64,000 bases of DNA from positions 120,346 through 184,345 of the forward strand of contig NZ_KN214134.1 in assembly GCF_000763055.1 (NCBI RefSeq), in the 5' to 3' direction. Below the pieces are notes generated by a model. It made no database searches. It was not told the DNA's origin and saw nothing but the letters and a program-made list of their open reading frames with translations. The first letter of the stretch is position 1. Each line of letters starts with the position of its first letter. Both the position numbers and the translations under genes were made by a program. The stretch comes from Collinsella sp. 4_8_47FAA. GTDB taxonomy: Bacteria; Actinomycetota; Coriobacteriia; Coriobacteriales; Coriobacteriaceae. Shown in pieces: positions 1,475 to 51,932 of this stretch.

Positions 1475-2616
1475 CGGCCCTCATCTCCTTGCTGTTTGGG
1501 AACGGTGGCAAACACACGCCAGCCGCCGGTGCCGGCGCGCGGGCCGGCGGTGAAGGTGCCGCCAAGCGCCTCGACGCGCTCGCGCATGGAGGCGAGCCCC
1601 ATGCCCTCCGCAGCGCCGCGGCCGCTTGCTTGGACCTCACCCACGCCATCGTCGGTAACAATGAGCTGGTAAAACGACGGATGCTCCATGCACCGTACGG
1701 TGACGGTCTGGGCGCAAGCGTGGCGCATGGTATTGGAGAGCGCTTCGCGCAGGACCGCCGCAAAGCAGTTGGCGACGTTTGCGGGCGCATGTTCGGCCAT
1801 AACTTCAAGCTCAATCTGCGGGCCGCCGTCCGAGCGTGTGCCTTCGACAATGCGTTCGAGCTGCACGGAAAGGTCGACGGCGTTGTCGTTGAGCGCGTGG
1901 ACGCTGGTGCGCACAAGCTGGAGCGCCTCGTCAACCGTGCGTTTAACGTCGGCGAAATCGGCGGCGACGCCAGGCTCATCGGCGTGGACCACGCGTAGGG
2001 CTTCGGCCTGCAGTGAGGCGCGCGTGAGCTGGTGCCCGACGTTATCGTGGATCTCGCGCGCGATGCGGGCGCGTTCGGCGAGCGTCGCGAGCTCGACTTC
2101 GTAGTCCTGGCGATCGGCAAGATCGCGGTTGCGCGCCTCGAGCGCGAGGGCTCGTTCCTGCAGCTCGTCGCGGGTGCGGCGCATGCGCCGCTGCTCGCGC
2201 TCCAACTGGGCGGTGCGTAGCGATAGCAAGGTGGCGGCAACCGAAAGGATGGCGGTCAGCAGGAGCGTTCGTGCGGTAAGCGCATCGGCGCGAAGGTCCG
2301 CGACGAGCGCAAAGGCAAAGACGGAGCCAATGCCCAACGCGACCCAGGCGTGCTCGCGGCGCACGCGTCGCGCGATGTCATAGAGGGCGAGAGGCGCAAA
2401 CGGCACAAACGGCGGCACGAAGACAGCCGCGATGATGCAGGCGTAGCTCGCTGCCTCGCTTGCGCGTCGGGTGCGTTTCCCCTGTGTGACCTCGGCCAGC
2501 GAGGTGGCAATAATGCCAAGGCAAAACGCCACAACCAGACGAGCGTCCACGGCAAGACCCATGGCGGTCGCAATACAGCACGCCAGCACGATCGATTTGT
2601 CGAAAAGCCTGTTCAT
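1471..2616 (-). CDS. sensor histidine kinase, NarX/DesK type (HisKA_3)
   Basis: A 381-residue membrane kinase with four to five hydrophobic segments in the first 135 residues, a coiled-coil linker (135-180), the phosphoacceptor His190 in AREIHDNVGHQ, and a C-terminal HATPase_c domain (N-box REALSNTMRHA, then DDGVG and GMGLASMRERV). It probably senses a membrane signal and phosphorylates the regulator it overlaps by 4 nt. I chose ATG 2616 although no Shine-Dalgarno precedes it: a TACAAT box at 2628-2623 ends six bases before the ATG, which fits a leaderless transcript. Starts further upstream would add about 78 residues of non-conserved, arginine-rich sequence. Confidence 0.9.
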   Translation of the reverse strand: MNRLFDKSIVLACCIATAMGLAVDARLVVAFCLGIIATSLAEVTQGKRTRRASEAASYACIIAAVFVPPFVPFAPLALYDIARRVRREHAWVALGIGSVFAFALVADLRADALTARTLLLTAILSVAATLLSLRTAQLEREQRRMRRTRDELQERALALEARNRDLADRQDYEVELATLAERARIAREIHDNVGHQLTRASLQAEALRVVHADEPGVAADFADVKRTVDEALQLVRTSVHALNDNAVDLSVQLERIVEGTRSDGGPQIELEVMAEHAPANVANCFAAVLREALSNTMRHACAQTVTVRCMEHPSFYQLIVTDDGVGEVQASGRGAAEGMGLASMRERVEALGGTFTAGPRAGTGGWRVFATVPKQQGDEGR

Positions 2617-9732: not shown

Positions 9733-9793
9733 CACTCATTTAAGTCCGTCCCCAATGAGTGGTTTCAGTCATTTAAGTCTGTCCCCAATGACT
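9733..9793. repeat. two tandem 13-nt-core hairpins (GGGGAC family)
   Basis: Copy 1 has arms CACTCATT/AATGAGTG (9733-9740, 9754-9761). Copy 2 has arms AGTCATT/AATGACT (9767-9773, 9787-9793). Each pair encloses exactly 13 nt, whose complement reads GGGGACGGACTTA and GGGGACAGACTTA. The arms differ between copies but stay complementary, so pairing rather than sequence is kept. The rest of 9794-9900 shows only the DUF362 ribosome site GAGGGGAT near 9885. Confidence 0.8.
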
Positions 9794-9900
9794 AGAAAGG
9801 AACGTCCTCAGCGACTAGGTGCCGTACTTGACTTTAACTCTGCTTTAACTGGTACCATCCTCTATGTCTGTAACGCCATATAGACCGAGGGGATATATCT

Positions 9901-18177: not shown

Positions 18178-18206
18178 TAGTCATTTAAGAACGTCCCCAA
18201 TGACTA
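18178..18206. repeat. 13-nt-core hairpin (GGGGAC family)
   Basis: Arms TAGTCATT/AATGACTA (18178-18185, 18199-18206) flank the 13-nt core, complement GGGGACGTTCTTA. It begins nine bases after the stop of the deacetylase-fold gene. Confidence 0.85.
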
Positions 18207-36157: not shown

Positions 36158-36231
36158 GACTAGTCGCCGGGGACGTTCTTAAACGACTAGTCGCTGGGCG
36201 CCACTCATTGGGGACGTACTTAAATGAGTGG
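36158..36231. repeat. two tandem 13-nt-core hairpins (GGGGAC family)
   Basis: Copy 1 has arms GACTAGTCG/CGACTAGTC (36158-36166, 36184-36192) around a 17-nt interval containing GGGGACGTTCTTA. Copy 2 has arms CCACTCATT/AATGAGTGG (36201-36209, 36223-36231) around GGGGACGTACTTA. They lie upstream of the DUF4428 gene. The remainder of 36040-36416 shows no gene. Confidence 0.85.
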
Positions 36232-36416
36232 TAGTTGGAGACACTCCCTGCCGAGCTTGAGGCCGCGCGTGTCCCTTCTGGTCCATGAGGCTCAAAACCG
36301 CGGCGTGATGTGGACGGCTGGGGTCAAATTTGCAGCATTTCGAGCTCGGCTTCGATATTGAGACTGGTTCTTTATTAAAATAGATTTCCAGACAATTGAG
36401 CGGCTGGGGGTTAACC

Positions 36417-41349: not shown

Positions 41350-42030
41350 ATGGAGGCTTACAAGCAAGAGTTCATCAAGTTTATGGTCGAGTCCGACGTC
41401 CTTAAGTTCGGCAGCTTTACGCTCAAGAGCGGCCGTCAGTCCCCGTTCTTTATGAACGCCGGCGCTTACGTGACGGGCTATCAGCTCAAGAAGCTGGGCG
41501 AGTATTACGCCCAGGCCATCCACGATAACTTTGGCGACGACTTTGATGTGCTGTTTGGACCGGCCTACAAGGGTATTCCGCTGGCCGTCGTGACCGCAAT
41601 TGCCTACCACGAGCTGTACGGCAAGGAGGTCAAGTACTGCTGCGACCGCAAGGAGGCCAAGGACCACGGTGCCGATAAGGGCAACCTGTTGGGTTATGAG
41701 CCCAAGGACGGCGACCGTGTGGTCATGGTCGAGGACGTTACCACCAGCGGCAAGTCCATCGACGAGACCTATCCCAAGGTCAAGGCTGCTGCCGATGTCG
41801 AGATCAAGGGCCTGATCGTGTCCCTCAACCGCATGGAGGTCGGCAAGGGCGGTGTGACCACCGCGCAGAAGGAGATCGAGGCCAAGTACGGTTTCCCCGT
41901 CGCGAGCATCGTCTCCATTGCCGAGGTCGTCGAGACCCTCTACAACCACGAGATCGACGGCAAGGTTGTCATCGACGACGAGCTCAAGACCGCCATCGAC
42001 GCCTACTACGAGCAGTACGGAGCACGTTAG
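41350..42030 (+). CDS. pyrE: orotate phosphoribosyltransferase
   Basis: A 226-residue type I phosphoribosyltransferase converting orotate and PRPP to orotidine 5'-phosphate in pyrimidine synthesis. The substrate-binding segment FTLKSGRQSPFFMNAGAY, FGPAYKGIPLA and the PRPP motif VVMVEDVTTSGKS are intact. ATG 41350 follows GAGAGGAG. The gene stands apart from other pyr genes, and a multi-stem palindromic element starts at its very stop codon. Confidence 0.95.
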   Translation: MEAYKQEFIKFMVESDVLKFGSFTLKSGRQSPFFMNAGAYVTGYQLKKLGEYYAQAIHDNFGDDFDVLFGPAYKGIPLAVVTAIAYHELYGKEVKYCCDRKEAKDHGADKGNLLGYEPKDGDRVVMVEDVTTSGKSIDETYPKVKAAADVEIKGLIVSLNRMEVGKGGVTTAQKEIEAKYGFPVASIVSIAEVVETLYNHEIDGKVVIDDELKTAIDAYYEQYGAR

Positions 42031-42192
42031 TTACGGCGTTTTACCAAACGCCGTAACTGCTCGACGCTGCGCGGGCCGCATTTGGACAATCTGACGTTCA
42101 ACTTCAAGGGCGCGACCAGAAGGTCAGCGCCCTTTCGTTTCACGTCACCTTGTCTCAAATGCGACCCGCTCGCTGTCCGTTCTCTACCTGCG
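42030..42192 (+). ncRNA. multi-stem structured element, copy A (after pyrE)
   Basis: P1 is GTTACGGCGTTT/AAACGCCGTAAC (42030-42041, 42046-42057), overlapping the pyrE stop. Then constant GACGCTGCGCG (42063-42073). P2 pairs CGCATTTG..ACAA (42077-42089) with TTGT..CAAATGCG (42150-42163), extended by GCGGG/CCCGC. P3 is AAGGGCGC/GCGCCCTT (42106-42113, 42127-42134), capped by GACC-AGAA-GGTC (42114-42125). GCTCGCTGTCC and CTCTACCTGCG follow. Copy B at 45471-45634 keeps the plan with different stem sequences. Transcription is not shown; it could be an RNA or a DNA palindromic element. Confidence 0.6.
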
Positions 42193-42255
42193 GCGTCGTC
42201 TTGCTCCGAATGCGGCCCGTTCGCTGCCGTTGCCAAGGCATCGGCGTTGCCGGAC

Positions 42256-42284
42256 TAGTCATTGGGGACGTTCATAAATGACTA
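42256..42284. repeat. 13-nt-core hairpin (GGGGAC family)
   Basis: Arms TAGTCATT/AATGACTA (42256-42263, 42277-42284) flank GGGGACGTTCATA. It closes the region that starts with structured element A, as the 45658 copy closes element B. Confidence 0.85.
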
Positions 42285-42293
42285 CTCAGGAAT

Positions 42294-42357
42294 GAGCGTG
42301 GATAATCTCCCGTTTTTGGCCTGTGTGCGGGCTCAAAGTGGGAGATTATCCACGCTC
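42294..42357. repeat. fic-flanking hairpin, copy 1 (18-bp perfect arms)
   Basis: GAGCGTGGATAATCTCCC (42294-42311) and its exact complement (42340-42357) flank a 28-nt loop that begins GTTTTTGGC and ends CTCAAAGT. A second copy in the same orientation lies at 43741-43792 on the other side of fic. Confidence 0.9.
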
Positions 42358-42383
42358 GCTTTAATTTGCCTGGGCTGCGGTGC

Positions 42384-43556
42384 CTATCTAATCGGCTCGG
42401 CGTCTTCCCTGAGAATCGAAAGATACTCTTCATACCCGTACTGCCGGTATCTCTGTCTTGACTCGTCGAGCGGACGGAGGATACCCAATTCTTCAAATGA
42501 TTTGACGAGCGAGCTCGCGGTACTCCTGCCGATATCGAGTTGGGCAGCGATGAATGCGGTGTCGACGATGGGGTGCTCTTCAAGAATGCCCAACAGCCTT
42601 TGCCCGTTTGCAGCAGTCCTTCCGAGATTTTCGGTAATGGTTGCTGTGGAACGGTTATGGAGGTCAACAAGGTTTTTTAAAGACCCTACCGAGTCCTTCG
42701 CACTCTCGAGAAGACTGTTGCAGAAAAACTCTATCCATTCCTCGTAAGTGCCTCTCTCCCTTACGGATGTGAGTTGCCGGTAGTACTCGCTTCGGTTTTT
42801 CTTGAACTGGAACGATGGATAGAACAAGCAAGAATGAAGAACGCCATCATTGATGAGCATAAGTGTAATGAGAAGCCTGCCCAGGCGACCGTTTCCATCT
42901 AGGAATGGATGGGCAGTTTCAAATTGGTAATGGACGAGCGCCGCCCGCACAATCGGATCCATTTCGACTTGAGGCTCATTGATAAAGCGTTCGAGGTCCT
43001 GGAGCGTGTTACTCAAATCTTCAATGTTTGGAGGGACAAACGATGCGGTTGCAATGGTGCAGCCTGAGGGGCCAATCCAGTTTTGTGAGGAGCGCAGCTC
43101 GCCTGGATTCTTCTCCGTTCCGCGCACTCCGTCCAGCAGGACCGCATGAACTTGCCTAAGAAGTCTCGTGCACAAGGGCATCTTTTTGAGCAGTTCTACG
43201 CCGCGGTCGACAGCACGGACGTAATTCACGACGTCTGCGACATCTTTATGATGGAGTTGTGTTTGCGATGGACTAAGTAGGTCGTCAAACGTGCACTGGG
43301 TTCCCTCAATTTGCGAAGAAAGGAGTGCTTCTTTGCGCACGTACATTGTCAGATACATATCGGCGTTGGGAACAAAGTAGAGCATGCCTTCAAGCTCTCC
43401 AAGCTTTCGTGAGCATGCGGAAAGCGTGCGATAGGTTTCCTCGGTGAGGTTTAGCTGTCTCAATGATTGCAAGGGCGTTGGAAAAAACGAATAGTAAGCC
43501 AATTTCCCCGATAGATTATTGCGGAGCGTTCCCTGGCCGTTCTCCTCGATTTGCAT
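42384..43556 (-). CDS. Fic-domain protein (class II, with inhibitory motif)
   Basis: A 390-residue Fido protein that would transfer AMP or another nucleotide phosphate to a target. The catalytic motif HPFLDGNGRLGR (216-227) is intact. The inhibitory helix motif SSQIEG (80-85), fitting [S/T]xxxE[G/N], lies N-terminal to it, so activity is normally self-restrained. The C-terminus (about 300-390) holds a winged-helix-like segment (EEHPIVDTAFIAAQLDIGRSTASSLVKSFEELGIL), often used for autoregulation. ATG 43556 is chosen because GGAGGG lies just before it; ATG 43568 is in frame. The gene is visibly richer in A+T than its neighbours and is flanked by two related hairpins, suggesting recent acquisition. 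Confidence 0.92.
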   Translation of the reverse strand: MQIEENGQGTLRNNLSGKLAYYSFFPTPLQSLRQLNLTEETYRTLSACSRKLGELEGMLYFVPNADMYLTMYVRKEALLSSQIEGTQCTFDDLLSPSQTQLHHKDVADVVNYVRAVDRGVELLKKMPLCTRLLRQVHAVLLDGVRGTEKNPGELRSSQNWIGPSGCTIATASFVPPNIEDLSNTLQDLERFINEPQVEMDPIVRAALVHYQFETAHPFLDGNGRLGRLLITLMLINDGVLHSCLFYPSFQFKKNRSEYYRQLTSVRERGTYEEWIEFFCNSLLESAKDSVGSLKNLVDLHNRSTATITENLGRTAANGQRLLGILEEHPIVDTAFIAAQLDIGRSTASSLVKSFEELGILRPLDESRQRYRQYGYEEYLSILREDAEPIR

Positions 43557-43605
43557 CGCGCCCTCCATATCTTTAGTGCCGGAAACTCGTTATTAGGCCA
43601 ATCAT

Positions 43606-43653
43606 ATCAATTCTAATAACGAGTTTAAGGATTAAATAGTTATTAGAATTGAT
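43606..43653. promoter_or_regulatory. palindromic probable operator upstream of fic
   Basis: ATCAATTCTAATAAC (43606-43620) and GTTATTAGAATTGAT (43639-43653) are perfect 15-bp inverted copies separated by 18 nt. Two further GTTATTA motifs flank it (43590 and 43679 areas). The DNA is strongly A+T-rich. Autoregulation by the winged-helix part of the Fic protein is a reasonable guess. A run of ten G lies at 43714-43723. Confidence 0.55.
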
Positions 43654-43740
43654 GTAAACAATCTAATGATGAGAAGTCGTTATTACTTGACCATGGAGCT
43701 CGGCTTGGTACAAGGGGGGGGGGTTATCCAAAATGAGAGC

Positions 43741-43792
43741 GGATAATCTCCCGTTTTTGGCTCGGTGACGGCCTCAAAGTGGGAGATTATCC
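43741..43792. repeat. fic-flanking hairpin, copy 2
   Basis: GGATAATCTCCC (43741-43752) pairs with GGGAGATTATCC (43781-43792). The 28-nt loop again begins GTTTTTGGC and ends CTCAAAGT. The outer part of the arm is shortened by two bases on the left compared with copy 1. Confidence 0.88.
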
Positions 43793-43837
43793 ACGCTCGT
43801 TAGTTAAGCGTCCGAAAATCCACACTCGCCAAACCTA

Positions 43838-43862
43838 CCAAAAAGGGACAGGTTTATTTTGG
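43838..43862. repeat. 13-nt-core hairpin (AGGGACAGGTTTA subfamily)
   Basis: Arms CCAAAA/TTTTGG flank AGGGACAGGTTTA. The outer bases no longer pair, so this copy seems decayed compared with those at 51838-51913. Confidence 0.7.
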
Positions 43863-44130
43863 CACGTTTCGGTCGGTATCAGGAAGTGTCAGGGACGGGG
43901 CGGCGGCAGGACTCGAGAGCGAAAAGAAGTATCGGGTTTGGCGTGCCCGCTTCTGCCCGTCCCGCGCGTGGGCGATACTCGGCTTATCGAACCGCGATGC
44001 AAAGGAGATGCTCATCCCACGAGCACTACCGAGAAGGGCTTGCGATTCGAGTCCCCACCTTAGCATTTGAACCATTTGGCACTATAATTACCGTAGGCAT
44101 GCGCACAACGTTGCGCTTAATCAAGAGGAG
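43863..44130 (+). promoter_or_regulatory. crr upstream region with promoter
   Basis: No gene is visible. GGGACGGG (43892-43899) and CCCGTCCC (43956-43963) form an inverted repeat. A promoter TTAGCA (44060-44065), 17-nt spacer, TATAAT (44083-44088) fits transcription of the EIIA gene, whose ribosome site AAGAGGAG ends at 44130. Confidence 0.6.
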
Positions 44131-44137
44131 AAAACGT

Positions 44138-44674
44138 ATGGGTCTGTTTGATATGTTCAAGAAGAAGGCTGAGCCCGCGGCTGCCGCTGCTCCGGCCTCC
44201 ATCTCTGCTTCTGCCGGCGCCGACGTGCTGTGCTCGCCCGTCAAGGGCAAGGTCATCAAGATGGCCGACGTGCCCGATCCCGTCTTTGGTGGCGAGGTTC
44301 TGGGCAAGGGCTGTGCCGTGTGGCCCGAGGACGATCTGGTCTACGCTCCCTGCGACGGTAAGGTGACCGTCACCATGGGTCACGCCGTGGGTCTGCAGTC
44401 CGATAGCGGCATCGAGGTTCTGGTGCACGTTGGCGTCGATACCGTCAACATGAACGGCGATGGCTTCGAGGGCTTCGTCAAGGCCGACGACGTTGTGAAG
44501 GCCGGCCAGCCCATACTCAAGATCGACCGCGCCAAGATCGCCGCTGCCGGTTACAAGGACTGCGTCGTGGTGGCCGTGTCCAACACCGCCGAGTTTGCCG
44601 ACGTCGAGCTCACCGTTGAGGCAGAATCCGCCGTCGCCGCCGGTGACGCCATCGTTAAGGTCGTTCGCAAGTAA
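44138..44674 (+). CDS. crr: PTS glucose-type EIIA component
   Basis: A 178-residue cytoplasmic phosphocarrier. After a Lys/Ala-rich N-terminus, the EIIA-Glc fold runs from about 28 (VLCSPVKGKVIKMADVPDPVFGG). The active His lies in IEVLVHVGVDTVNMNG, and the second conserved His in TMGHAVGLQS. It would accept phosphate from HPr and pass it to an EIIB, and may regulate uptake of other sugars. No EIIB/EIIC is adjacent, so it probably serves PTS permeases encoded elsewhere. ATG 44138 follows AAGAGGAG. Confidence 0.93.
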   Translation: MGLFDMFKKKAEPAAAAAPASISASAGADVLCSPVKGKVIKMADVPDPVFGGEVLGKGCAVWPEDDLVYAPCDGKVTVTMGHAVGLQSDSGIEVLVHVGVDTVNMNGDGFEGFVKADDVVKAGQPILKIDRAKIAAAGYKDCVVVAVSNTAEFADVELTVEAESAVAAGDAIVKVVRK

Positions 44675-44700
44675 ACTGCGGCGTTCAAAGGATGTGCAAG

Positions 44701-44730
44701 GGTGGTCGGGTTTTCCGGCCACCTTTTTTA
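44701..44730 (+). terminator. rho-independent terminator of the EIIA gene
   Basis: GGTGGTCGG pairs with CCGGCCACC (one G-T) around TTTT-rich loop bases, followed by six T. Confidence 0.88.
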
Positions 44731-44910
44731 TTGCACCGTGGGGAAGCGTTTTATTGCGCGTTGGGCGGGCTTGCAAACCGTTCGGACGCTAAAACGAACC
44801 GACCGCGCCTTCGCGTTGCCGAGGGTGTTCATAAGTGGATAGTATGGGCTTACTTATTACAACGTGCGCCGCGTCTGGGAAGCGCAGTGCCGCTCATTGG
44901 GAGGAACAAC

Positions 44911-45468
44911 ATGAAAAAGAAGCTGCTGCTTGCGCCCCTCATGGCCGTCTTGGTTGCATGTGTGGTCGTGCTTTCCGGCTGTGGAGGTCCTTCGGTTGAG
45001 GAGCTCATCACCGAGGATCTTACGACGCAGTTTGACGAGGTCAAGAACGGTGGCGACGACTTCCTTTCTGGTCTGGAGGAGGCTTCAGGCGACGAGTTCG
45101 AGCAGCTGGGTATCGATCCCAAGGAGTATGCCAAGACCTATCTCGAGGGCTTTGACTACAAGATCGGCGACGTGACGGTCGACGAGGACAAGGGTGTCGC
45201 GACCGCCGAGGTCTCTATCACCTGCAAGTCTATGAACAAGATCGTTGAGGACTTCTCCACCCAGTATCAGGAGAAGGTCGCCGCGCTTGATACGGTTCCT
45301 TCCGATGACGAGCTGTACAAGATGGCCGGTCAGGTTATGGTCGATGTGACCAAGGCCACCGAGCCCAGGAAGACCACGGTTATCTTCAAGTACACCTGCA
45401 ACGACGACGGCGAGTGGTCTGCCGACGACTCCGTCAACTCCGAGATGATGGATGCAATGCTGAGCTAG
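44911..45468 (+). CDS. small lipoprotein of unknown function
   Basis: A 185-residue protein. The N-terminus MKKKLLLAPLMAVLVACVVV ends in the lipobox LSGC, giving a lipid-anchored external protein. The mature part is acidic (DDELYKMAGQVMVDVTKATE) with alternating helix and strand, similar in style to the DUF5105-type lipoproteins of Actinobacteria and Firmicutes; I do not assign it firmly. ATG 44911 follows GGGAGGA. The structured element B begins two bases after its stop. Confidence 0.83.
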   Translation: MKKKLLLAPLMAVLVACVVVLSGCGGPSVEELITEDLTTQFDEVKNGGDDFLSGLEEASGDEFEQLGIDPKEYAKTYLEGFDYKIGDVTVDEDKGVATAEVSITCKSMNKIVEDFSTQYQEKVAALDTVPSDDELYKMAGQVMVDVTKATEPRKTTVIFKYTCNDDGEWSADDSVNSEMMDAMLS

Positions 45469-45470
45469 GG

Positions 45471-45634
45471 GGTTACGCGGTTCTACGAACCGCGTAACCA
45501 GTTGACGCTGCGCGCCGCCCAGGACGACAATTTGTCATTCAAAAGGCAAGGCATGACCAGAAGGTCTATGTCTTGCCTTTTTCATGCCAACTTGTTCGTC
45601 CTGGACGTCGCTCGCTGTCCATCCTCTACCTGCG
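45471..45634 (+). ncRNA. multi-stem structured element, copy B (after the lipoprotein gene)
   Basis: P1 is GGTTACGCGGTT/AACCGCGTAACC (45471-45482, 45488-45499). Then constant GACGCTGCGCG (45504-45514). P2 pairs CCAGGACGACAA (45519-45530) with TTGTTCGTCCTGG (45592-45604). P3 is AAAAGGCAAGGCAT/ATGTCTTGCCTTTT (45541-45554, 45568-45581), capped by GACC-AGAA-GGTC (45555-45566). GCTCGCTGTCC and CTCTACCTGCG follow. Relative to copy A, the P1-P3 sequences are replaced by other pairing sequences while tip and flanks are unchanged. The P3 arm ends in T5, so it may also terminate transcription. Confidence 0.6.
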
Positions 45635-45657: not shown

Positions 45658-45686
45658 TAGTCATTGGGGACGTTCTTAAATGACCA
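45658..45686. repeat. 13-nt-core hairpin (GGGGAC family)
   Basis: Arms TAGTCATT (45658-45665) and AATGACCA (45679-45686, one mismatch) flank GGGGACGTTCTTA. It follows element B as the 42256 copy follows element A. Confidence 0.8.
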
Positions 45687-47755: not shown

Positions 47756-47839
47756 ATCGAAAACTCCAATCGTGGGTGGAATTATATGGGTGAGGCGCAG
47801 CGTCGACTGGTCCGCCGTTCGTTAGAACGGCGGAACCTA

Positions 47840-48952
47840 TTAGCCTCGGTAGCGGAAATATGCTGCGCAGCTGCCCTCGGAGCTCACCATGCAGGGGCCG
47901 ACGGGATGCTCGGGCGTACAAGCGTGGCCGAACAGGGGGCAGTCGCTCGGCGCAATGGCCCCGCGCAGCACGTCGCCGCAGCGGCACCCGCGTGGCTCGA
48001 CCGTCGGCTCGATGGACACGTCAAAGCGCATGCTGGCATCAAAGTGCGAAAACTCGGGACGAATGGCGAGTCCCGAAGCCGCAATCGATCCCAGCCCGCG
48101 CCACGTGGTATCGCACGGCTCAAATACCTGCTCGACCAGCTGGCGCGCCACAGGATTGCCGTCGGCATTGACGCCGCGACGGTAGGCGTTGTCGATCGCG
48201 GGTTGCCCCTCAACAACCATCTGGACCAGCATGCAGATACCCTGCAAGATGTCGACCGGCTCAAATCCCGTTACCACGCCTGGAGTCTTAAACTCGTCGA
48301 CCAAAAAGCTAAAGGGCGCCAAGCCCGTGATGGTGGCGACGTGGCCCGGCAGGATAAAGCCGTCGATGGTGGTCTCGGGGTCGTTGGCGATGACGCGCAA
48401 CGCCGGCGGCGTGGTCTTGTGGGCGCAATAGACCGAGAAGTTCAAAAGCCCGCGCGCCTCGGCCTCCAAGATGGCGGCGGCGATGGTGGGCGTCGTAGTC
48501 TCAAAGCCCACGCCCATAAAAATGACCGGGCGATCAGGGTTTTGCTCGGCAATGTCGAGCGCGTCGAGCGGGGAATAGACGATGCGGATATCGCGCCCCG
48601 CCGCCTTTTGCGCAGCGAGCGAGGTGGATGATCCGGGCACGCGCATCATGTCGCCAAAGGTGGTGATGATGGCGCCGTCTATGTTGGCGAGCGCGATTGC
48701 GTGGTCGATGTCGCGGTTGGCGGTGACGCAGACGGGGCAGCCCGGGCCGCTCAGCAGCTTGAGCCCGGCCGGCATAATGGAGCGAAAGCCATAGCGCCCG
48801 ATGCTCACGGTATGCGTGCCGCAGACTTCCATAAGGTTGATGGTGCGGTCGCCGACAAGCTCATGAATGCGCTCGATGAGCTCGCGAGCCAGCTTGGGAT
48901 CGCGGAATGCCGAGAAATCGATACCGGAGCGAGCCGGCTGCTCGGGCGCCAC
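47840..48952 (-). CDS. hypD: hydrogenase maturation protein HypD
   Basis: A 370-residue 4Fe-4S scaffold protein on which, together with HypC, the Fe(CN)2CO unit of NiFe hydrogenase is assembled. The conserved Cys lie in MEVCGTHTVSIGRYG and GPGCPVCVT, and cluster Cys near the C-terminus in RGCRCGDVL, CPLFGHACTPEHPVGPCMVSSEGSCAAYF. The start is GTG 48952, overlapping the hypC stop (TAGTG), which indicates translational coupling. Confidence 0.97.
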   Translation of the reverse strand: MAPEQPARSGIDFSAFRDPKLARELIERIHELVGDRTINLMEVCGTHTVSIGRYGFRSIMPAGLKLLSGPGCPVCVTANRDIDHAIALANIDGAIITTFGDMMRVPGSSTSLAAQKAAGRDIRIVYSPLDALDIAEQNPDRPVIFMGVGFETTTPTIAAAILEAEARGLLNFSVYCAHKTTPPALRVIANDPETTIDGFILPGHVATITGLAPFSFLVDEFKTPGVVTGFEPVDILQGICMLVQMVVEGQPAIDNAYRRGVNADGNPVARQLVEQVFEPCDTTWRGLGSIAASGLAIRPEFSHFDASMRFDVSIEPTVEPRGCRCGDVLRGAIAPSDCPLFGHACTPEHPVGPCMVSSEGSCAAYFRYRG

Positions 48953-51815: not shown

Positions 51816-51837
51816 GCGACACCCCTCATCAAAACCG

Positions 51838-51913
51838 ACCAAAAAGGGACAGGTTTATTTTGGTAGGTAAAACTTCTAAACCTGCCAAAACAAACCTGTC
51901 CCTTTTTGGCAGG
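51838..51913. repeat. two facing 13-nt-core hairpins (AGGGACAGGTTT subfamily)
   Basis: Copy 1: arms ACCAAAA/TTTTGGT (51838-51844, 51858-51864) around AGGGACAGGTTTA. Copy 2, inverted: arms CCTGCCAAAA/TTTTGGCAGG (51881-51890, 51904-51913) around the complement AGGGACAGGTTTG. Together they form a larger palindrome between nikR and hypF. Arm outer sequences differ between copies but pair. Confidence 0.88.
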
Positions 51914-51932
51914 TGCGCTGCGGGAAATCCCG

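Follow-up and report, generated by a model that had tools for sequence, protein, structure and literature searches.

The window analysed here is a stretch of 64,000 nucleotides (nt) from Collinsella sp. 4_8_47FAA (contig NZ_KN214134.1, positions 120,346 to 184,345). It carries two full copies of a palindromic, multi-stem element with a core of about 148 base pairs (bp). Each copy lies at the end of an unrelated gene on the same strand, the first behind pyrE and the second behind a lipoprotein gene (Table 1). Both copies had been pointed out in a first-pass annotation made from the letters alone, and sequence and folding confirm them. The TAG stop codon of pyrE (42028-42030) overlaps copy 1, its final G being the first base of the hairpin P1. 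The TAG stop of the lipoprotein gene (45466-45468) lies three bases ahead of copy 2.

A covariance model (CM) built from 16 copies of the same genome matches the 148-nt cores at 42030-42177 (C1:162375-162522, E 2.4e-33) and 45472-45619 (C1:165817-165964, E 1.2e-27). The copies fold with z-scores of -9.5 and -8.4, respectively, and 0 of 200 shuffled sequences folded equally well. Their tails, CTCTACCTGCG, end at 42192 and 45634. In copy 2, the linker is the variant TTGACGCTGC, compared with TCGACGCTGC in the general plan, and the inner stem is flanked by AAAA/TTTTT in a terminator-like manner. The tip GACCAGAAGGTC, described earlier as constant, has exactly two exact occurrences in the window, both within the copies; with a one-mismatch match included there are three, where 0.16 are expected. 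The whole genome contains 18 occurrences, 17 of them inside element copies, versus 0 for the reversed control. A third, partial copy follows hypD (47840-48952, minus strand) at a distance of 3 nt from its stop.

Table 1 Element copies in the window and the genes that precede the full copies.
Feature	Position	Strand	Basis
pyrE (orotate phosphoribosyltransferase)	41350-42030	+	Open reading frame (ORF) list, sequence, slot comparison
Copy 1, P1 hairpin, 12-bp stem, loop TACC (GGTA on the opposite strand)	42030-42057	+	Sequence, folds
Copy 1, linker motif GACGCTGC (42063-42070) and long main hairpin to TCGCTGTC	42063-42177	+	CM match, folds
Copy 1, tip GACC-AGAA-GGTC	42114-42125	+	Motif search
Copy 1, tail variant CGTTCTCTACCTGCG	42178-42192	+	Sequence, alignment
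Lipoprotein gene	44692-45468	+	ORF list; true start probably 3' of the first in-frame start
Copy 2, P1 hairpin, 12-bp stem, 3-nt loop TAC (GTA on the opposite strand)	45472-45498	+	Sequence, folds
Copy 2, linker GACGCTGC (45504-45511) and long main hairpin	45504-45619	+	CM match, folds
Copy 2, tip GACC-AGAA-GGTC	45555-45566	+	Motif search
Copy 2, tail variant CATCCTCTACCTGCG	45620-45634	+	Sequence, alignment
Third, partial copy: P1 and linker TCGACGCTGCGCC only	47786-47836	-	CM match C1:168131-168181, E 0.0015

The element has a two-hairpin plan with extensive covariation

The core has a fixed length of 147-150 nt, followed by a short tail, in both Collinsella and Eggerthellaceae. Full copies begin with P1, a hairpin whose 12-bp stem closes a loop of 3 or 4 nt. 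The linker TCGACGCTGC joins P1 to a long imperfect hairpin. In this main hairpin, the outer arm pair varies, two 2x2 mismatch loops in the middle part are conserved, and the inner stem, which bears the tip, is again variable. The mismatches, the tip and the base are conserved, the base reading TCGCTGAC with the motif TCGCTG(A/T)C. Tips are GACC-AGAA-GGTC in the window copies and GGCC..GGCC or GTAC-CGAA-GTAC elsewhere. The tail occurs in at least three variants, which contradicts the earlier description of a terminal hairpin with a 13-nt core as a constant part. A script for sorting the tails assigned no type to 35 of 53 copies, and linkage of the tail is therefore not claimed.

Covariation was assessed with RNAalifold on a structure-blind MAFFT alignment (A3) of 50 sequences. 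It predicts 44 pairs, 40 of which show double changes. In the model-fitted alignment, 94.4% of the cells are paired, compared with 35-39% for slid partners. These family alignments bear out the proposal of one plan with covarying helices. Between the window copies, the stems termed P2 and P3 in the first-pass annotation differ strongly, as stated there, but P1, also said to differ almost entirely, does so at few positions only. It is nearly certain that the element family and its fold are real.

The family is confined to two bacterial families

The genome of origin contains about 36 copies (50 CM matches, including those to the second strand), and the closed genome of a relative, G002, about 28. 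Among 45 Collinsella genomes, about 24 have 27-42 matches, some of them to the second strand, and the rest 0-11. At E <= 1e-5, 118 of 398 Coriobacteriia genomes are positive. The Eggerthellaceae genomes tested contain 4-42 matches each with an unchanged plan; Atopobiaceae and several Collinsella have no element or weak traces only. A phylum-wide set of 396 genomes yielded 19 positives, all Coriobacteriaceae or Eggerthellaceae by labels inferred from the pattern of relatives, and no convincing match outside these two families. We have high confidence in this restriction.

Further homologs with paired but different stems, which had been named as the check to make, are plentiful. There is nothing in favour of chance palindromes or a recent duplication, and we regard both as refuted: the window copies belong to a family of about 36 in their own genome, with hundreds of homologs whose arms are different but paired, at E-values down to 4e-34.

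The window and the copies match no Rfam 15 family at the gathering score, in agreement with the earlier remark that no described RNA family has this plan; the best match at E <= 1 is a chance match with 16.5 bits against a cut-off of 60. Literature searches, of incomplete coverage, returned no published description for Collinsella or Eggerthella. The element is an undescribed family within the dispersed structured repeats of intergenic DNA, and its depth and polarity are unusual. It appears to rank among the most frequent dispersed elements in two major families of gut bacteria, which include Collinsella, Eggerthella and their relatives.

Most copies are placed in sense orientation directly behind stop codons

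The start of both window copies at the stop codon of an unrelated same-strand gene, noted in the first-pass annotation, is general in G002, where genes were called with a simple codon-usage gene finder. P1 faces the end of a same-strand gene in 29 of the 31 copies (p = 5e-7). In 23 of these 29, P1 starts -1 to 5 nt from the stop codon, with 3.5 expected (p < 1e-5). The gene context is codirectional for 19 copies, convergent for 11 and divergent for 1. Among distant copies from Eggerthellaceae, 18 of 30 begin within -5 to +1 of a stop. In three Eggerthellaceae genomes (L234, L235, L240, positions 1501-1648, minus strand), the element stands in frame behind the apparent C-terminus of CarA, the small subunit of carbamoyl-phosphate synthase. 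There is no stop codon behind CarA, so that P1 and the linker would encode DSAVLxNGGxxDAA and the frame runs on.

At one orthologous gene-end slot, L040, all 14 genomes without the element retain an intact native terminator, as opposed to 2 of the 7 that carry it (Fisher p = 0.001, uncorrected for relatedness, from counts made by eye in the slot comparison). At L047 and L024, the element occupies the place of another hairpin in relatives. The inner stem has a T-rich tail in most Collinsella types, and a strong one in, for example, AAAAGGCAAGGCAT..ATGCCTTGCCTTTTT. Since a pattern-based scan found no terminator in either window copy, the case for termination is built on these T-rich tails and on the terminator loss. 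We have moderate confidence that the element can assume the function of a gene 3' end, which these findings support but do not prove.

The same placement could reflect a structured RNA of the 3' untranslated region (3'-UTR). P1 would block 3'-5' exonucleases or act on the terminating ribosome, the long hairpin would end transcription or be cut by RNase III, and copies selected for this RNA function would spread by ordinary duplication and gene conversion. The sense orientation in 29/31 copies and the fixed position behind the stop agree with such a role, as do the very stable folds, the class-wide conservation of the structure, the T-rich tails of most Collinsella types and the loss of the native terminator at L040. 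However, the T-rich tail is not conserved in Eggerthellaceae. Moreover, termination at the inner stem would mean that the downstream arm is rarely transcribed, yet this arm covaries.

Slots are filled, emptied and switched between element types

G002, which is 96% identical at pyrE, was compared as a whole. For 30 copies of the genome of origin, about 8 slots in G002 hold the same type in place, about 11 hold another type and about 10 lack a full element. Identity in the other-type slots is 0.69-0.84, and a paralog elsewhere mostly matches at 0.9-0.96. The pyrE slot contains several element types among close relatives; in more distant species it contains plain terminator-like hairpins or a short derivative (G025).

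The cleanest filled/empty case is the slot L043 between two convergent genes. In the empty state (GTGCTAGGACAG), ten relatives read ..GTGTGCTAGGACAG.. or near variants, and the two stop codons overlap in CTAG or TTAA-type sequence. In the filled state, found in about 12 relatives, ..GTGTGCTA is followed by the element with its tail and then by CTANGACAG.., with GTGCTA directly before the element. Both genes therefore keep their stops. The CTA(G) on both sides is either a 3-4-bp target duplication or, as the mirror image, the trace of a precise loss.

Some copies in G002 and G035 are nested. The P1 type is independent of the main-hairpin type (p = 0.06 and 0.28), while the outer and inner arms of the main hairpin are linked (p = 0.002), and copies therefore recombine in the linker. 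P1 was also considered as an independent repeat and rejected, as it is found alone only in truncated or nested copies and in the hypD remnant. We have high confidence in insertion or loss and in exchange in the slots. A palindromic mobile element had been one of three options in the first-pass annotation, and it is the one favoured by the filled and empty sites and the switching of types. That orthologous genes so often differ in having the element or in its type argues against the 3'-UTR RNA explanation.

Other repeats were noticed as well. At positions 1224382 and 2030355 of G002, another hairpin family (AACTTGCGGTGAAATAGTTCC..GGAACTATTCCACCGCAACTT) lies in gene-end slots that bear the element in other genomes. 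A second palindromic family with dispersed copies in the window, TAGTCATTGGGGACGTTCTTAAATGACTA and its variants, often comes after the element (42256-42283, 45658-45684, 36161-36234, 18179-18206 and 9734-9794). A third palindromic repeat, GTGGATAATCTCCCGTTTTTGGCC..GGGAGATTATCCAC (42291-42358, 43732-43799), was also met at gene ends of relatives, for example in slots of G032. Copies of yet another repeat, with AAAAAGGGACAGGTTTATTTTGG, run in both orientations (43831-43867, 51832-51914).

The covariation points to pairing at the DNA level

Among the pair cells, G.T (2.0%) and A.C (2.2%) are equally rare. In individual folds of Collinsella copies, G.U amounts to 1.7-2.5% on either strand, versus 10.1% in 59 tRNAs of a relative and 5.6% when these tRNAs are read on the wrong strand. 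Copies that are 1-8 positions apart show 19 double Watson-Crick changes versus 13 one-sided ones. One-sided changes are split about evenly between G.T and A.C (3:6, 38:39 and 57:84). The counts, those of the pair cells included, are not phylogenetically independent. The tolerance of G.U in excess of A.C that characterises a structured RNA of one strand was not found, and P1 alone leans the other way.

The strand opposite the mRNA forms the more stable fold, the difference being about 9 kcal/mol for RNA and 3-8 for DNA. Folds of single-stranded DNA (ssDNA) reach z-scores of -10 to -13.5 and are again better on the non-coding strand. On this strand, P1 has a GNNA or GNA loop, and the internal loops appear as tandem G-A mismatches, both of which are stabilising motifs of DNA hairpins. 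Some copies contain fully matched arms or an inverted tip (L014/L039, L016/L050; G002 152549), which suggests arm-to-arm copying through template switching within the palindrome.

The covariation looks unlike that of a one-strand RNA, and DNA pairing or arm-to-arm copying is the better fit. It does not serve as proof of a selected RNA, in view of the parity of G.T and A.C, the depletion of G.U on both strands, the better folding of the non-coding strand and the double changes in near-identical copies. We have moderate confidence that DNA-level pairing is the main constraint. The first three of these observations, together with the points given above, weigh against 3'-UTR RNA function, which we consider rather unlikely to explain the family. 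From the earlier option of a 3'-end RNA or regulatory non-coding RNA (ncRNA), a secondary RNA role at the 3' end may stand.

Bidirectional terminators between convergent genes, with both RNA strands under selection, would by themselves produce equal G.T and A.C, and 11/31 G002 copies do lie between convergent genes. We nevertheless find this explanation very improbable. For the 19/31 copies between codirectional genes, the second strand has no obvious transcript, the orientation is fixed relative to the gene on the P1 side, and the U-tract is not conserved class-wide.

Massive covariation thus need not imply RNA. The comparison of G.U with A.C separates DNA-level from RNA-level pairing and could be used on other ncRNA candidates based on covariation.

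The REP-type Y1 protein of the genome does not track the element

The genome of origin encodes two Y1-type proteins, one of which is a repetitive extragenic palindromic (REP)-type protein of 341 amino acids. Its presence raises the possibility of a REP family mobilised by a REP-associated tyrosine transposase (RAYT). Such a family would likewise be palindromic, intergenic and located behind stops, and the element can supply a TAG stop as GTAG REPs do (PMC3733652). However, the gene of the 341-residue protein is not flanked by element copies, and the two distributions disagree: RAYT is widespread among Atopobiaceae, where the element is nearly lacking, and it is missing at E 1e-10 from the element-rich genomes G108, G155, G177, G202, G226, G260, G306 and G376. 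On this phyletic profile, RAYT was rejected as a partner. Mobilisation as a REP family is mostly refuted for this RAYT, and we consider it improbable. An IS200-type TnpA (L019) is also present; no element copy was noticed nearby, and the TnpA ends were not compared.

Discussion

The element is probably a lineage-specific, dispersed, palindromic non-coding DNA element, similar to REPs or miniature inverted-repeat transposable elements (MITEs), that spreads to gene 3' ends and is exchanged there. A folded single DNA strand, probably the one opposite the mRNA, would be recognised by a trans-acting enzyme. Two processes would keep the arms complementary: this recognition, and the use of one arm as the template for the other when the DNA is replicated. 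Once in place after a stop codon, the element would be transcribed, and its inner stem, often followed by T-rich sequence, may end or protect the mRNA. The native terminator would then become dispensable and could be lost. The element points to an enzyme that handles a folded DNA strand of 150 nt.

Several points weigh against this explanation. No transposase was found for the element, and the only Y1/RAYT-like candidate does not track it across genomes. The target duplication is seen at one slot only and is explained equally well by exact loss of an element between CTA repeats. The spacing between stop and element varies by about 6 nt, unlike in site-specific insertion, and the strict sense orientation is as compatible with an mRNA function as with targeted insertion. 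T-rich tails are not conserved class-wide and are weak or absent in several Eggerthellaceae copies. Finally, the G.T and A.C counts are clumped in related copies, and in P1 alone G.T exceeds A.C (18 vs 2).

A bolder form of the mobile-element explanation, which we put forward tentatively and think unlikely on present evidence, is an ancient, stop-codon-directed mobile 3'-end module. Recognised as folded ssDNA, it would insert in sense at stop codons and take over the formation of mRNA 3' ends. If this is true, the lineage owes part of its terminators to a mobile element, and terminators are exchanged from gene to gene. The placement at stop codons raises a testable question: is a mobile element able to replace terminators one gene at a time?

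Comparison with known systems

Of the hallmarks of MITEs and cut-and-paste elements, CTA(G) on both sides occurs at one slot, no terminal inverted repeats were seen in the element and the right boundary is blurred.

REP units are 20-40 bp long, and CGTC REPs have stems of 8-9 bp that start with AT (PMC3733652). GTAG and CGTC REPs and bacterial interspersed mosaic elements (BIMEs) are palindromic, intergenic and multicopy, lie mostly <20 bp from ORF 3' ends and can provide a TAG stop; CGTC REPs likewise have no known transposase (PMC3733652, PMC2817692). The element shares the position next to ORF 3' ends. It differs in size, with a core of 147-150 nt, and in its P1 stem of 12 bp that starts with GTT. 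REPs carry a terminal tag beside the stem and form head-to-head pairs, whereas the element combines two unlike hairpins over about 148 bp in sense to the gene. GTAG is inconsistent in the element. CGTC, the reverse complement of GACG, is nearly invariant, but lies inside the linker and the main-hairpin base, about 5 nt from P1. Unlike the alternating arrays of BIMEs, G002 copies are single and in sense to the gene, and occasional nested pairs have the same orientation. A cognate RAYT flanked by copies was not found, and PMC3733652 contained no Coriobacteria term. Because the element departs from REPs in size, tags, arrangement and RAYT partner, we do not file it as a REP.

Intrinsic (Rho-independent) terminators resemble the element in their position at the gene 3' end and in a GC-rich inner stem that is often followed by T-rich sequence. 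In the element, however, the inner stem is enclosed by a long outer arm pair, a 12-bp hairpin lies at the stop and the T-tract is not conserved.

The attC sites of integrons and the end hairpins of IS200/IS605 are sequence-variable, structure-conserved ssDNA hairpins with conserved unpaired bases, and the element has all three properties. It differs in that copies are single at gene ends. No adjoining integrase or tnpA was noted and no attC core boxes were noticed by eye; no integrase search was made.

The element is of the same broad kind as bcr1 of Bacillus cereus, MIRU of mycobacteria and BOX/ERIC, dispersed non-coding intergenic repeats of 50-160 bp with a conserved fold and strain-variable occurrence; MIRUs also overlap stop codons. 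They are not known to be related to the element in sequence, and they belong to other lineages. What sets the element apart from them is its strict sense polarity, its two-hairpin plan and its depth across two bacterial families.

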